Assembly: GCA_016200145.1 (NCBI GenBank) | Contig: JACQFH010000164.1 | Location: 1 to 37,213, forward strand | Direction: 5' to 3' | Length of the DNA: 37,213 nt | Source: Planctomycetia bacterium | Lineage (GTDB): Bacteria > Planctomycetota > Planctomycetia > Planctomycetales > Planctomycetaceae | Shown: positions 23,760 to 37,213 of the stretch, in pieces | Layout: each line of letters opens with the position of its first letter | Numbering within the stretch: the stretch's first letter is position 1 | Translations under genes and position numbers: made by a program | Notes under the pieces: model-generated | The model's input: the letters and a program-made list of their open reading frames with translations, nothing else | The model's database searches: none | Told to the model about the DNA's origin: nothing

Positions 23760-23820
23760 TTTCACCCTTGTCGTGATCGTCAAACTGCCCCACTCCCCAG
23801 ATCGACAGGAACGAAACATC

Positions 23821-24147
23821 ATGAAAAACCTCTGCACGCGATTCTACAACGACGAAGCCGGTTTCGTGGTCTCGGCCGAACTGATCCTCGTCTCGACAAT
23901 CACCGTCCTGGCCCTGGTGTGTGGATTGAGCGAAGTCGCCTATGGAATCAACGGCGAGCTGGAAGACGTGGGCGCCGCGTTCGGCAGCCTGAACCAGTCG
24001 TTCTGCTTCAGCGGGTTTTCGACCTGCGGCTGCAAGAACAACAAATCTTCGGGAAGCTGCTTCACCGACCACACCGATCTGTGTGACGGGCAGAACGACA
24101 TCCAGAGCATGGCTCCCACCGGCGAACAGGGCGGCAATAACTGGTAG
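23821..24147 (+). CDS. Pilin-like (Flp/TadE-type) small protein, tandem copy 1
   Basis: The 108-residue product has a short charged leader (NDEAG) followed by a hydrophobic helix, FVVSAELILVSTITVLALV, with a Glu near its start, the layout of Flp or type IV prepilins cut after Gly. After the helix comes GINGELEDVGAAFGSLNQSF and then a Cys-rich part with CFSGFSTCGCKNNK and DLCD. Proteins of this kind are common and numerous in planctomycetes, often wrongly named. I infer a surface or pseudopilus subunit; assembly genes are not in the window. An AGGA Shine-Dalgarno is present 11 nt before ATG. The upstream open frame to 23542 is not real. It is followed by family F repeats and paralogue 2. Confidence 0.75.
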   Translation: MKNLCTRFYNDEAGFVVSAELILVSTITVLALVCGLSEVAYGINGELEDVGAAFGSLNQSFCFSGFSTCGCKNNKSSGSCFTDHTDLCDGQNDIQSMAPTGEQGGNNW

Positions 24148-24218: not shown

Positions 24219-24335
24219 CCAAGCCAACCTGAACTCACGTGATGCGAACGACCGTCCAGTCGGTGGGTTTCCTGCCGCCTGACTCAATCAATCACAATTC
24301 TGATTTCACACGATTCTGCAACTGGAGACTCCCGC

Positions 24336-24695
24336 ATGAAGACCCTTTTCAACCGGTTCTGCAATGAGGAGGCAGGCTTCGTTGTCTCGGCCGAGTTGAT
24401 CCTGATCTCGACCGTCACCGTCTTGTCCCTCGTCGTAGGCTTGAGCGAAGTTTCGTACGGCATCAACGGCGAGCTGGAAGACGTGGGCGCGGCCTTCGGC
24501 AGCCTGAACCAGTCGTTCTGCTTCAGCGGATTCTCGACCTGCGGCTGCAAAAACAACAAGGTGGGCGGGAGCTGCTTCGTCGACCACATCGACCTGTGCG
24601 ACAAAGAGCACGACATCTGTCCCACCGGCCCGACCGGCGAGACCGGCAAAGGCAACGAACACGGCGGACACGGCGACAATGGCGGCAACTGGTAG
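24336..24695 (+). CDS. Pilin-like (Flp/TadE-type) small protein, tandem copy 2
   Basis: This is a 119-residue paralogue of the gene at 23821. The stretch from GINGELEDVG through CGCKNNK is identical in the two proteins, and the leader (NEEAG) and helix differ conservatively. The five-Cys pattern is retained, with one more Cys near DIC. The tail diverges to a Gly/His/Asn-rich end with PTGPTGETGKGNEHGGHGD, slightly collagen-like. A GGAG Shine-Dalgarno lies about 10 nt before the ATG. A strong intrinsic terminator follows at 24801-24831, ending the probable two-gene unit. The role is inferred as above. Confidence 0.75.
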   Translation: MKTLFNRFCNEEAGFVVSAELILISTVTVLSLVVGLSEVSYGINGELEDVGAAFGSLNQSFCFSGFSTCGCKNNKVGGSCFVDHIDLCDKEHDICPTGPTGETGKGNEHGGHGDNGGNW

Positions 24696-26215: not shown

Positions 26216-27485
26216 ATGCTGCGTCGAGTTGCTTTCCCGATGTCGTGCCTTCTTGTGCTGTGCGGCGCGTTCGCGACGATCGCGCAAAGCGGCAACTGGC
26301 CGAGCTGGCGCGGGCCGGATTCGAGCGGCGTGGTGCGCGAAGGCCAGGGATTTCCCACGCGCTGGAGCAATTCTGAGAACGTCCTGTGGAAGATCGAACT
26401 GCCCGGCAAGGGGGCTTCGACACCCATCGTCTGGGAAGACCGGATCATCCTGACCTGCGCAATCGACGGGAAAAACGGCGTGCTCTGTCTCGATCGCGAA
26501 GGGAAAACACTCTGGAAAAAGACGGTGGGAGCAGAGAAGCCGGGCAAGCACGCGAAGGCGACCGGCTGCAATCCTTCGGCCGTGACAGACGGAAAACGCC
26601 TGTACGTCTACTTCAAGAGCGGCGACCTGGCCTGCCTCGACATGGCGGGAGGGATCATCTGGCAGAAAAACCTGCAGGACCTGTTCGGGGAAGACACCCT
26701 GTGGTGGGACCTGGGCACCTCCCCGGTGCTGACGAAAGACAACGTCGTCGTGGCGGTCATGCACAGCGGACCATCTTACATCGCCGCTTTCGACCGGGAA
26801 ACTGGAAAGCAGGCCTGGAAACAAGACCGCAATCTCGACGCACCCCGCGAAGCGGCGCAAAGCTATTCAACCCCTGTTGTCGTGAACGACGGCAACCGCG
26901 AAATCCTGGTTGTCCTCGGCGCCGACCATGTCACCGCGCATGACGCCAAAACCGGCACAGAATTGTGGCGCGTCGGCGGGTTGAATCCCGCCGGCGATGA
27001 GTACTTCCGTTCCATCGCCTCTCCCGTCGTGCACGACGGCATCGTCGTCGCCCCCCTATGCCCGCGGCAACGTCGTGCTTGCGATTCGACTGGGAGGCAA
27101 GGGAGACGTGTCGAAATCTCACATCGTCTGGTCGAACAACAAGCTGGGGGCCGACGTTCCCACTCCGGCTGCTCTCGACGGCAAGGCCTACGTCTGCACC
27201 GACCGCGGCGAGCTCGCCTGCATCGACGTTAAATCAGGAAAAGTCCTCTGGAGGGGCCAGGCGGAAAAGCACCGCGCGGCCTTCAGCGCCTCGCCCGTCA
27301 TCGCAGACGGCAAGATCTATACGATCCGGGAAGACGGCAAGGCGTTCGTCATGGCGCTGGGGAACGAGTTCAAGCTGCTCGCCGCCAATGAGCTCGAAGG
27401 CGAATTCGTCGTCGCCACCCCCGTCTTCGTCGACGGCCGCATCCTCATCCGCACCGCCCAGCGCCTCTACTGCATCGGCACGTAG
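26216..27485 (+). pseudogene. PQQ-like beta-propeller secreted protein, frameshifted
   Basis: The N terminus has a signal peptide (MLRRVAFPMSCLLVLCGAF...) followed by NWPSWRGPDSSGV, the usual opening of planctomycete PQQ-binding-like propeller proteins. Repeats with strands such as GVLCLDREGKTLWKK, GDLACLDMAGGIIWQK and IAAFDRETGKQAWKQ fill the product. The frame is lost at a run of six C (27051-27056). Dropping one C joins HDGIVVAP to YARGNVVLAIRLGG, and the rest (ELACIDVKSGKVLWRG, RLYCIGT) completes a protein of about 422 residues. The break may be a real mutation, phase variation or a sequencing error. Its stop lies exactly at the edge of a family A element. Confidence 0.85.
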
Positions 27486-27663
27486 TAGGTCAGGCTTTCC
27501 AGCCTGACAGCAATGCGGACCCAACAAGAATTCACGATTGCCAGCCCCAAAATCGAGCAACCAGCAAGTCGCGTTCTTACAACTCCGGTCAAGGCCGCTG
27601 GCCCGCAACCTATAGCATTCAGGCAACACCGAGCGCCGTCAGGCTGGAAAGCCTGACCTACTA
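27483..27663. mobile_element. Family A MITE-like element, copy A1, between convergent stops
   Basis: Arms of 24 nt (27485-27508 and 27638-27661) are exact inverted copies containing GTCAGGCTTTCCAGCCTGAC. The TAG stops of the PQQ-like gene and of glpD lie at the two outer ends, each reading TAGTAGGTCAGG. The interior shares segments such as CAATGCGGA, AGAATT and GCCAGCCCC with copy A2. No transposase is encoded. Confidence 0.85.
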
Positions 27664-29217
27664 CGCCACGTACCCGGCCGCCACATCCCCGTACGCCGCC
27701 ACCTGCCGCGACACCCACTCCGGCCCCATTCCCAGTTCGCCGGCCATCAGCTCGGCCACGACCGGCGCGGCTTCGATGCTGGCCCGCGCGTCGAGGAACA
27801 GGGCCCGCGTCCGCCGTGCCAAAACGTCTTCCGGCGTGCGTGCCATCTCGTGCCGCGCGGACCATACGACCTCGGCCTTCAGATAGGGCAAGCGCGGATG
27901 CAACAATGATCCCAGCTCGGCTCTGCCGGCGGCCAGTTTCATGATGGCCGGGGCTTCGCTGCCGTAGACCGTCAGCGGCTCGTGCGGATCGAGCTCCGCG
28001 CGCCAGCCGTGCAGCCGCAGCTCACGCGTCCCGCACAGACGCACCGGCAACCCCGCGGCACGCGCCGCCACGTCGACAACATTCTCCCCCATGTGGCGAT
28101 ACGTCGTCCATTTGCCTCCCGTGATCGTCACCAGGCCTGATGCCGAGATCTCGATGTGGTGGTCTCGCGACGTCGCCGCGGTCGAGCGCGATTTCGGGTC
28201 GGCGACCAGCGGTCGCAGCCCGGCGTACAGGCTGACGATTTCGCCGCGCCTGGGCAGCGCCCGCAGGTAGCGCCCCGCATTGGCCAGCAGAAAGTCGATT
28301 TCCTCTCCAAGTGGCCGCGGTTCGAGCTGCGCTTCTGAGACCGGCGTGTCGGTCGTTCCCAGCAGCACCTTACCGTGCCACGGAATCGCAAACAGCACCC
28401 GACTGTCGTCGGTGTGCGGCACGACGACGGCGCAGTCGCCCGGCAGCGCGGCCCGGTCGAGCACGGCATGAATCCCCTGGCTGGGAGTCATCAGCCGCCG
28501 CGCCGCGGGCTCGTCCATCCGCCGCACATCGTCGGCGAACACTCCCGTGGCGTTGATGACCACGCGCGCCCGGATGTCGAATTCATTCCCTGTCTCGACG
28601 TCGTGCAGGAGCGCACCGCACACGATTCCGTCAGACTTGATGAGTCCGGCCACGCGCAGATAATTCGCCGCCGTGCCTCCCAGATCGACCAGCGTGCGCG
28701 CCAGAGCCACGGCCAGGCGCGCGTCGTCGAACTGGCAGTCGTGGTACAGGATGCCGCCGCGCAGGTTGTTTTCAATCAGCGTCGGGCAGCGTTCGAGCGT
28801 CTCGCGGCGCGAGAGCCATTGGGCGCCGGCGCGCCGGTACTTGCCCGCCAGCAGGTCGTATGCTTTCAACCCCGAGAAATAGAACGGCAGCTCCCACAGC
28901 GAATACGCGGGGATGACGAACGCCATGTCGTGCACCAGGTGCGGCGCGTTCCGCAGCAGCAGCTCGCGCTCGAACAGCGCCGTCTGCACCAGATTCACGC
29001 GCCCCTGGGCGAGGTAGCGAATTCCGCCATGAATCAGCTTGGTGCTGCGGCTCGACGTTCCCTTGCAGAAATCATGCTGTTCGACGAGCAGCGTGTGGTA
29101 GCCGCGCGCTGCCGCATCGACCGCCGCCCCCAGCCCGGTCGCCCCGCCACCAATGACGAGCACGTCCCACGGATCGCTCCGATCCCCAATCGCCCTCAGT
29201 GCCTCATTGCGATTCAT
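27661..29217 (-). CDS. glpD: Aerobic-type glycerol-3-phosphate dehydrogenase (FAD)
   Basis: Membrane-associated flavoprotein oxidising glycerol 3-phosphate to dihydroxyacetone phosphate and feeding electrons to quinone. The Rossmann FAD motif VIGGGATGLGAA is near the N terminus, followed by KGTSSRSTKLIHGGIRYL, the GlpD family hallmark. TITGGKWTTYRHM and the C-terminal helical domain (EVVWSARHEMARTPEDVL) complete the protein. From ATG 29217 it is 518 aa, the usual size; GTG 29241 is a possible longer start. The stop codon forms the right edge of a family A repeat. No glpF or glpK was seen, and the adjacent exporter genes are divergent. Confidence 0.95.
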   Translation of the reverse strand: MNRNEALRAIGDRSDPWDVLVIGGGATGLGAAVDAAARGYHTLLVEQHDFCKGTSSRSTKLIHGGIRYLAQGRVNLVQTALFERELLLRNAPHLVHDMAFVIPAYSLWELPFYFSGLKAYDLLAGKYRRAGAQWLSRRETLERCPTLIENNLRGGILYHDCQFDDARLAVALARTLVDLGGTAANYLRVAGLIKSDGIVCGALLHDVETGNEFDIRARVVINATGVFADDVRRMDEPAARRLMTPSQGIHAVLDRAALPGDCAVVVPHTDDSRVLFAIPWHGKVLLGTTDTPVSEAQLEPRPLGEEIDFLLANAGRYLRALPRRGEIVSLYAGLRPLVADPKSRSTAATSRDHHIEISASGLVTITGGKWTTYRHMGENVVDVAARAAGLPVRLCGTRELRLHGWRAELDPHEPLTVYGSEAPAIMKLAAGRAELGSLLHPRLPYLKAEVVWSARHEMARTPEDVLARRTRALFLDARASIEAAPVVAELMAGELGMGPEWVSRQVAAYGDVAAGYVA

Positions 29218-29245
29218 GCCCGATCCGTCGTCCAGCGCCACGTAG

Positions 29246-29336: not shown

Positions 29337-29357
29337 GAGCAGGCTGGAAGCCTGCTC
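29337..29357. repeat. Short palindrome GAGCAGGCTGGAAGCCTGCTC
   Basis: Nine-base arms around a 3-nt centre, directly before copy A2. It resembles a single arm of family A and may be a solitary or degenerate arm. Confidence 0.6.
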
Positions 29358-29360
29358 TAC

Positions 29361-29539
29361 GTAGGTCAGGCTTTCCAGCCTGACAGCAATGCGGATCCAA
29401 CCAGAATTGACGGTCGCCAGCCCCAGGCCTAAGCAACCGAGAAATCACTTCCGCACATCGCCCGCCAATCCTACTGGCCCGCGACCCGTAATTCTCTTCA
29501 CACGCTGATCACTGGCAGGCTGGAAAGCCTGCCCTACGA
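29361..29539. mobile_element. Family A MITE-like element, copy A2
   Basis: Left arm GTAGGTCAGGCTTTCCAGCC (29361 on) and right arm ending CCTGCCCTAC (29539) are inverted copies with two differences. The interior shares CAATGCGGATCCAA, AGAATT, GCCAGCCCC and CTGGCCCGC with A1. It is about 179 nt and ends 17 nt before the ABC ATPase ATG, so it may supply or disrupt that promoter. Confidence 0.8.
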
Positions 29540-33935: not shown

Positions 33936-34096
33936 GTAGGTCAGGCTTTCCAGCCTGACAGCGTTGCGGATTCCCTGGAACTCATCGGTCGCCGGCCAGC
34001 GGGCTAGTCGTACCGTCAGACGTGATTCATGCCGGCTTGGGGACAGACGATTCACAGCGAGGGCGTACTGCCGTCAGGCTCGAAAGCCTGACCTGC
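33936..34096. mobile_element. Family A MITE-like element, copy A3
   Basis: The left arm GTAGGTCAGGCTTTCCAGCC begins at 33936, and the right arm (34073-34096) ends in GCCTGACCTGC, with one mismatch in the core. The interior begins ACAGCGTTGCGGATTCC, like A1 and A2. It adjoins a duplicated gene 3' end (34097 on). Its right part has a near copy at 36883-36946. Confidence 0.75.
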
Positions 34097-34419
34097 ACGC
34101 AGCAGGCGATGCCCGGCGAGGCGGAAACCGCGCTCGGCGAGGCGGGCCTGCCAGCCGGCGCGGGTGCCGATTGACGAGGCGTCGTCGAGCAGGCCGTGCT
34201 TCTCTTCCTGCCGGGTGAGGCGGGCGAACCTGGCGTGGAGGGGATGAGCCGCCGCCAGGAACGTTTCTTTGCGATGGAGCAAGGGCGGGTTTTCGCTCTG
34301 GCGGTAGTCGTAAAAGTCGATCTGCCGCGAGCGCATGTTGAGTTTGACGCAGCTCGCCAGGGCCGGATGAGGATCGGTCTCGAAGTCGGGATAAGCGAGG
34401 AATGCGACGTTGCCTGAGA
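34052..34419 (-). pseudogene. Duplicated 3'-end fragment of the phosphorothioation-associated methyltransferase-like gene, copy 1
   Basis: Read on the - strand, about 105 codons match the partial gene at 36902-37213, with segments NVAFLAYPDFETDPHPAL, QSENPPLLHRKETFLAA, FARLTRQEEKHGLLDDAS, IGTRAGWQARLAERGF and GHRLLR. The frame has no start for the full protein and begins 7 nt after the stop of the toxin gene. It runs on through the right arm of copy A3 to a stop at 34052. It is too short to be the whole protein. The homology extends beyond the gene end by about 60 nt, so the duplicated block includes intergenic DNA. Family call as for the partial gene. Confidence 0.75.
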
Positions 34420-35247: not shown

Positions 35248-35391
35248 CTACCCACTCGCGCAGCGCAGCAAGCGATGGCCGGCCAGGCGAAACCCGCACT
35301 CGGCGAGGCGGGCCTGCCAGCCGGCGCGGGTGCCGATCGTCGAGGCGTCGTCGAGCAGGCCATGCTTCTCTTCCTGGCGGGTGAGGCGGGC
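35248..35391 (-). pseudogene. Duplicated 3'-end fragment of the methyltransferase-like gene, copy 2
   Basis: About 45 codons on the - strand match the last part of the partial gene at the right edge: RLTRQEEKHGLLDDAS, TIGTRAGWQARLAECGFRLA and GHRLLR, then CASG and a stop. The homology begins abruptly at 35391, 26 nt beyond the Fic stop. It is therefore a second, shorter copy between the Fic gene and the toxin-antitoxin pair. Unlike copy 1 it has no family A arm after it. Confidence 0.75.
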
Positions 35392-36706: not shown

Positions 36707-36882
36707 AAGACGCGGCAGAAAAATAACATGTGTTGTTGAATCTTATTTTATTATGCATTTCGTGTCCATGGAATGTCAATTCGTATGCGCGCAACAAAAG
36801 GAATCGGCCATTTCCACATGGAAAATACTGGCAGCAGCCATACTGCAGACATTTCGACTCCGCGGGGATGTGGAATTCGCGT

Positions 36883-36946
36883 GGGCTTGGGAACACACGA
36901 TTCACGACGGGGGCACATTGCCGTCAGGCTGGAAAGCCTGACCTGC
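36883..36946. repeat. Right half of a family A element (A4)
   Basis: GTCAGGCTGGAAAGCCTGAC is at 36923-36942, with flanking sequence (GGGCTTGGGAACACACGATTC) closely matching the right part of A3. No left arm is found, so it is truncated near 36883. Confidence 0.75.
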
Positions 36947-37213
36947 ACGCACCAGGCGATGGCCGGCCAGTCGAAACCCGGCCTCGGCGAGGCGGGCCTG
37001 CCAGCCGGCGCGGGTGCCGATTGTGGAGGCGTCGTCGAGCAGGCCGTGCTTCTCTTCCTGGCGGGTGAGGCGGGCGAACTTTGCGTGCAGGGGATGCGCG
37101 GGGGCCAGGAAGGTTTCTTTGCGATGCAGGGCGGGCGGATTTTCGCTCTGGCGGTAGTCGTAAAAGTCGATCTGCCGCGAGCGCATGTTGAGTTTGACGC
37201 AGCTCGCCAGGGC
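36902..37213 (-). CDS. C-terminal part of a DNA phosphorothioation-associated methyltransferase-like protein (partial at window edge)
   Basis: The frame is open at the right edge and ends at 36902. Visible residues begin ALASCVKLNMRSRQIDFYDY and continue with QSENPPALHRKETF, FARLTRQEEKHGLLDD, IGTRAGWQARL and GHRLVR. This resembles, from memory, the C terminus of the dnd-associated putative methyltransferase family (TIGR04096). The last 15 codons run into the family A4 arm (AGQAFQPDGNVPPS), so the original stop appears overwritten. The rest of the gene lies outside. Two fragments of its 3' end recur at 34052-34419 and 35248-35391. Confidence 0.6.
   Translation of the reverse strand, partial: ALASCVKLNMRSRQIDFYDYRQSENPPALHRKETFLAPAHPLHAKFARLTRQEEKHGLLDDASTIGTRAGWQARLAEAGFRLAGHRLVRAGQAFQPDGNVPPS

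Follow-up and report, generated by a model that had tools for sequence, protein, structure and literature searches.

Short palindromes tagged with the tetranucleotide GTAG (GTAG REPs) have been described in many bacterial phyla, with Planctomycetes named at phylum level, as head-to-head dimers sited between convergent genes, and their termini "often provide" a TAG stop codon (Di Nocera 2013, PMC3733652). In the accessible part of that study, which covers 24 families, stop usage is a remark made without frame or homology analysis. In Pseudomonas and Escherichia coli, the inverted REP doublet (REPIN or BIME) is the mobile unit and forms a long hairpin as single-stranded DNA (Bertels & Rainey 2011, PMC3116915). 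The REP-associated tyrosine transposase (RAYT, or TnpA-REP) is a Y1 HUH enzyme whose gene lies between inverted REPs of one type (PMC2817692, PMC6006769, PMC8266576). IS200/IS605 elements likewise have a tetranucleotide 5' of a hairpin and make no target duplication; the left-flanking tetranucleotide there belongs to the target, whereas REPs are considered to carry GTAG as a guide.

The planctomycete repeat family described here, family A, shares with the GTAG REPs, as far as the accessible part of PMC3733652 goes, the GTAG tag and short palindrome, the dimers with GTAG outside, the preference for convergent or unidirectional gene ends and the TAG supplied by the REP. It has the same inverted doublet and long hairpin as the Pseudomonas and E. 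coli REPINs, but its spacer is longer and weakly conserved (often ~129 nt) and no matching RAYT was detected in its own draft genome. The same arrangement of a Y1 gene between inverted REPs was found in planctomycete relatives, where the family-A RAYT gene ends at the TAG of the REP in two of three cases.

The window is the whole stretch of DNA analysed, 37,213 nt of a Planctomycetia bacterium (contig JACQFH010000164.1, C427 in our numbering) from a draft genome of 8.28 Mb in 742 contigs. Between two convergent genes, it contains the element A1 (27485-27661), in which two GTAG-type REPs, each consisting of GTAG and the palindrome GTCAGGCTTTCCAGCCTGAC, stand head-to-head as a REPIN or BIME unit. 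The features of A1, its neighbours and the other family-A copies in the window are as follows.

26216-27485, plus strand: left neighbour, a BamB/PQQ-type beta-propeller gene, with a frameshift near 27050-27080 in the assembly that divides it into ORFs 26216-27232 and 26997-27485, each matching TIGR03300/PF13360.
27483-27488, plus strand: TAGTAG, comprising the left-gene stop (27483-27485, its last G being that of the arm) and then the arm's own in-frame TAG.
27485-27508, plus strand: left REP arm, GTAG (27485-27488) and palindrome GTCAGGCTTTCCAGCCTGAC (27489-27508); exact 24-nt family core, with conservation beginning at the G in the genome-wide logo and variable flanks.
27509-27637, no strand: A1 spacer of 129 nt with weaker inverted symmetry, seen in the pair table and the single-stranded DNA fold.
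27638-27661, minus strand: right REP arm, inverted, with GTAG outward and the same core.
27658-27663, minus strand: TAGTAG, comprising the right-gene stop (27661-27663) and then the arm's TAG.
27661-29241, minus strand: right neighbour, a glycerol-3-phosphate dehydrogenase-like flavoprotein gene (PF01266 and PF16901).
29361-29537, no strand: second family-A REPIN, its right arm degenerate; it has the same spacing as A1 and 77% identity to it over 126 nt.
33936-34096, no strand: third family-A REPIN, spacer 113.
36923-36946, minus strand: lone family-A REP arm.

The inverted arms of A1, already seen in the sequence-only reading, extend over 31 nt (27481-27511 and 27635-27665) with 97% complementarity and a longest perfect run of 28 nt. 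They enclose the 24-nt family core GTAGGTCAGGCTTTCCAGCCTGAC once on each strand (27485-27508 and 27638-27661), and each arm reads GTAG and then the palindrome GTCAGGCT TTCC AGCCTGAC, the structure typical of a GTAG-type REP. A1 and family A show the defining arrangement of a REPIN, namely two inverted REPs with GTAG outward that can form one hairpin, and A1 folds as single-stranded DNA with z = -6.45. The neighbours' TAG stops at both edges were also confirmed, the left ORF ending at 27485 and the right, minus-strand ORF at 27661. Both borders read TAGTAGGTCAGG, where a flanking TA and the G of GTAG form one TAG, followed in frame by that of the arm itself. This is a minority variant: a gene ends at, or one base into, the arm in 5 of 166 arms, and GTA stands immediately 5' of the arm in 4 of 166 against ~0.9 expected. 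In the usual form in family A, the arm's own TAG is the stop.

The overlapping ORFs of the left neighbour match one propeller, the 3' part being the ORF that reaches A1, and the frameshift may be either a sequencing error or the mark of a real pseudogene. An ortholog of the A1 locus was not found in the same-genus genome G001, in which the best match of the left gene has 41% identity and no GlpD match was among those listed. Elsewhere in the window, the palindrome GAGCAGGCTGGAAGCCTGCTC at 29337-29360 adjoins the second REPIN (29361-29537) and resembles a GTAG-type REP of another kind. Towards the right end, direct repeats 128-300 nt long with 88-94% identity (34025-34324, 35264-35391 and 36875-37174) overlap REP arms, and two small adjacent duplicated genes (23820-24044 and 24335-24559) share 83% identity over 225 nt.

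The 16-nt arm core occurs in 153 exact copies in the draft genome and the reversed control in none, so the arms of A1 are not a chance occurrence. In a logo of 160 arms, GTAG lies directly 5' of the short palindrome, as in GTAG-type REPs, with conservation of 93-98% per base for GTAG and 96-99% for the palindrome. Conservation begins abruptly at the G of GTAG, and outside it just A/T at -1 and A at -2 are favoured. All 56 close pairs have GTAG outward, and about half of them fall into two spacer classes of 125-131 nt (21 of 56 pairs) and 104-113 nt. About one third of the arms are single (56/168). The family is high in copy number and mostly extragenic, with 13 of 164 arms inside genes. The exact 24-mer was found in this genome and one other among 392 in an even sample of the phylum, and the arm is present in ~20 or more planctomycete MAGs of a named collection. 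One pair of arms at the end of contig C201 (L102:8724-8773), separated by just 2 bp and with flanks that form a perfect palindrome, is probably an assembly fold-back and was excluded from the stop-codon counts.

The draft genome has seven Y1 transposase genes, either IS200-like or with other palindromes, and none of those with readable flanks is flanked by family A. The RAYT of C332 (L121:4600-5700) carries GGGGACAGGTCCAT repeats instead, that of C503 (L149:12820-13600) carries CAGGCTCTGCCTG repeats, and those of C615 and C128 (L172:1900-2830, L174:5230-6030) carry GGTGGCACGCCCTG repeats; C471 and two IS200-like genes have no family-A repeats. These distinct flanking palindromes (GGGGACAGGTCCAT; CAGGCTCTGCCTG; GGTGGCACGCCCTG) mark several coexisting REP-RAYT systems in one genome. 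No transposase-like ORF was seen between arms among the loci checked, and the initial arm loci examined in other MAGs contained no RAYT. In a survey of 90 Y1 loci from ten related genomes, family-A REPs were found on both sides of a Y1 gene at L450 (G398), L471 (G395) and L483 (G399), the arrangement expected of a REPIN/RAYT system. The RAYT-like transposase with matching ends that the sequence-only reading proposed to look for is present in three relatives, and none was found in the draft genome itself. The three proteins have 222-227 residues and are 60-90% mutually identical. The L450 protein matches PF01797 (Y1_Tnp) with E = 1e-8. Its match to NCBIfam REP_Tyr_transpos has E = 3e-22 and, at 79 bits, falls one bit short of the cut-off of 80. 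A search of solved structures with the RAYT gave no match. At L450 and L471, the RAYT gene itself stops at the arm TAG, and the L483 RAYT continues into VGQAFQPD. Since the closest Y1 proteins of the draft genome are only 21-35% identical to the family-A RAYT, the cognate gene is either missing from the draft or lost. The flanking arrangement suggests that an L450-type RAYT moves family A. We hold with high confidence that A1 is a REPIN belonging to a REPIN/RAYT system; this confidence applies to the REPIN/RAYT identity and not to the target model considered below.

Gene ends were called with a home-made codon-pair gene finder trained on 1.18 Mb of the genome, and the stop counts rest on the 1.18 Mb of arm- and RAYT-containing contigs, a set biased towards arms. 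Seventy-two genes reach an arm edge, of which 4 share only the arm's G (the A1 class), 1 is flush with the edge and 67 run in. Among these 67 genes, 57 stop at the arm's TAG, 1 stops at the next-frame TGA, met 23 nt into the arm, and 9 read on in the open frame, whose product is VGQAFQPD... If both stop frames were equal, the ratio of 57 to 1 would have p = 4e-16. TAG, TGA and open frames stand at 20:1:7 at 80 loci of other planctomycete MAGs, and other GTAG-hairpin families of the same genome give 10 stops, 2 open frames and no TGA frame at gene ends. Of another 32 arms located 3' of a stop, 14 are no more than 13 nt away from it. Dimers are enriched between convergent genes (20/53 against 124/712 intergenic regions, p = 8e-4), and the 20 convergent dimers use the arm TAG on 23 of 40 sides, on both sides in 8 elements. 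This genome-wide excess of the palindrome's G-TAG as the neighbour's stop points to a mobile element landing at gene ends. On the other hand, 132 of 322 non-arm GTAGs at or behind gene ends are also stops, against 57 of 94 arms, some of the 132 belonging to other GTAG-palindrome families. Since vacant GTAG stops are common, part of the arm excess could be plain GTAG targeting combined with purging from genes. Random placement relative to stop codons, named beforehand as the outcome that would speak against the coincidence, is not what these counts give. The proposal that the element targets stop codons thus stands as far as non-random placement is concerned, while targeting and selection are only partly separated.

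Whether the TAG was found or brought was addressed by comparing arm-ended proteins with their orthologs in G001, the single same-genus genome, to which one window gene aligned at 71% DNA identity. No arms were found behind the ortholog ends examined, and the stops of the orthologs are mostly TAA or TGA. Among 17 arm-ended proteins, 8 end at exactly the same residue as the ortholog, 9 are shorter by 1-12 residues and none is longer, compared with 22 exact, 5 shorter and 3 longer in 30 control comparisons (one gene counted twice; p = 0.02). The 8 exact C-termini indicate that many copies sit precisely at a conserved gene end, and the 9 shorter proteins, with none longer, indicate that some copies probably truncated a gene and brought their TAG along.

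We also compared ten family-A sites of G398 with the orthologous intervals in the others of five related genomes, whose aligned flanks are ~90% identical. The orthologous intervals often contain a different inverted repeat. At slot E9, family A in G398 is matched by GTAGGTTGGGACTCCG... in G394, the right borders being identical and the left borders differing by 2 nt. As judged by eye, the upstream gene, DUF58-like when read from its sequence alone, ends with GTG-TAG in two species with two different REPIN families and with TGA in two species lacking a GTAG element. In slot E10, two species have family A and a further two have two other GTAG palindromes, and slot E4 holds family A in three species and GTAGGTTGGGAC... 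in a fourth. The borders of the different GTAG palindromes at E4, E9 and E10 coincide within 0-5 nt. An inverted repeat was present in 14 of 17 orthologous intervals without family A, against 31 of 73 intergenic regions generally (p = 0.006, a hand count made by eye on a small sample). Unrelated inverted-repeat families share the same intergenic slot at E3, E4, E6, E9 and E10 (L225, L257, L268, L279, L287 and relatives). At E7 (L272:4845-4909), a family-A REPIN lies in frame within a gene that reads as protein-kinase-like; among the orthologs L365, L373, L381 and L384, the same gene region holds other inverted repeats, and one site, L365, is nearly empty and has no GTAG. Slot sharing suggests either hot slots or direct REPIN-for-REPIN replacement, and it is both the least expected and the least secure part of our findings.

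How A1 came to lie between two stop codons can be read in several ways. The sequence-only description as MITE-like is apt for its appearance, as an element of ~177 bp that is dispersed, intergenic and bounded by perfect terminal inverted repeats. A classical MITE mobilised by a DDE transposase acting on such repeats is nevertheless highly improbable, since each arm is itself a GTAG palindrome, a third of the arms are single and the arm-flanked gene is a RAYT rather than a DDE transposase. Moreover, direct duplications of 1-9 nt in 56 elements showed no excess over shuffles at any length, and the suggested TAG target duplication gains no support from this result. A bidirectional intrinsic terminator common to the convergent genes, and spread or kept for that role, would explain why a stable hairpin coincides exactly with the 3' ends of both genes and why dimers are enriched between convergent genes. 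However, neither arm hairpin of A1 is followed by the T-run that makes a GC-rich hairpin an intrinsic terminator, and the sole terminator-like match, with a frequency close to chance, is in the spacer. In addition, no gene end faces about one third of the arms (57/166), and a given slot can hold unrelated palindromes in different species. We regard this role, also raised in the sequence-only reading, as improbable.

REPIN family A would be non-autonomous and depend for its movement, as folded single-stranded DNA, on a REP-associated tyrosine (HUH) transposase. New copies would arise at gene 3' ends because recognition or retention at the target involves, in part, the GTAG/TAG of the stop codon. 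We give target use of GTAG/TAG, in one form or another, about an even chance. An IS200/IS605-like use of a pre-existing tetranucleotide is favoured by the frame lock and the exact C-termini, and the truncations and the near-empty L365 are against it; judged from sequence, the stop-codon data seem to fit such target use better than GTAG as a guide. A pure model in which GTAG is the target leaves the truncations unexplained and does not easily explain why both ends of a dimer are stops. Alternatively, the REP may carry GTAG as a guide and land regardless of stops, with selection retaining gene-end copies whose TAG cheaply replaces a stop. This rival of the target model, which leaves the REPIN identity untouched, is a real possibility, though somewhat short of even. 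It is supported by the E. coli and Marinomonas RAYTs, for which GTAG forms part of the REP (PMC8266576), by the higher share of truncated genes among those ended by an arm than among controls, by the rarity of within-gene copies and by the missing GTAG at L365. Random landing followed by selection alone does not account for the 57-fold rarity of the TGA frame, which costs only about seven residues, for the exact C-termini in 8 of 17 proteins, or for the pile-up at the stop itself, with 14 of the 32 copies behind a stop no more than 13 nt away. Exchange of a resident REPIN for one of another family would change the sequence inside the GTAG...CTAC borders while leaving these and the stop in place. 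It would account for the different palindromes with nearly coincident borders at E4, E9 and E10, the two kinds of ending of the E9 gene and the excess of inverted repeats in the hand tally. Since the numbers are small, come from one clade and were classified by eye, and since repeated independent insertion into a permissive slot could give the same pattern, we consider exchange rather unlikely. We propose only tentatively that planctomycete RAYTs place REPINs at GTAG stops, or swap REPIN families between fixed GTAG...CTAC borders, so that a stop codon would be shared with a mobile element and unrelated families would succeed each other in the same slot of sister species.

A1 would place a hairpin directly behind the stops of two converging genes and give both messages a 3'-end RNA structure that is no classical terminator, and this is the likely effect on its neighbours. 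According to work cited in the accessible part of PMC12306157, ribosomes in E. coli are stalled by REPs lying no farther than 15 nt from a stop codon. By analogy, the hairpin at, or a few bases from, the stop would fall within this range for both convergent genes.

GTAG REPs are a known kind of element, and their coincidence with TAG stops is already noticed in the accessible part of PMC3733652; neither there nor in the other accessible papers did we find a frame test, C-terminus test or slot comparison for them. The frame-locked excess, the planctomycete RAYT and the different REPIN families in one slot of sister species appear to be new. This genome and its relatives thus provide a countable signature, consisting of the TAG frame lock, the exact C-termini and the slots common to unrelated families, and the family-A REP-RAYT pair from the relatives offers a system for testing stop-codon targeting. 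Family A also explains odd gene ends and in-frame VGQAFQPD inserts in planctomycete proteins.
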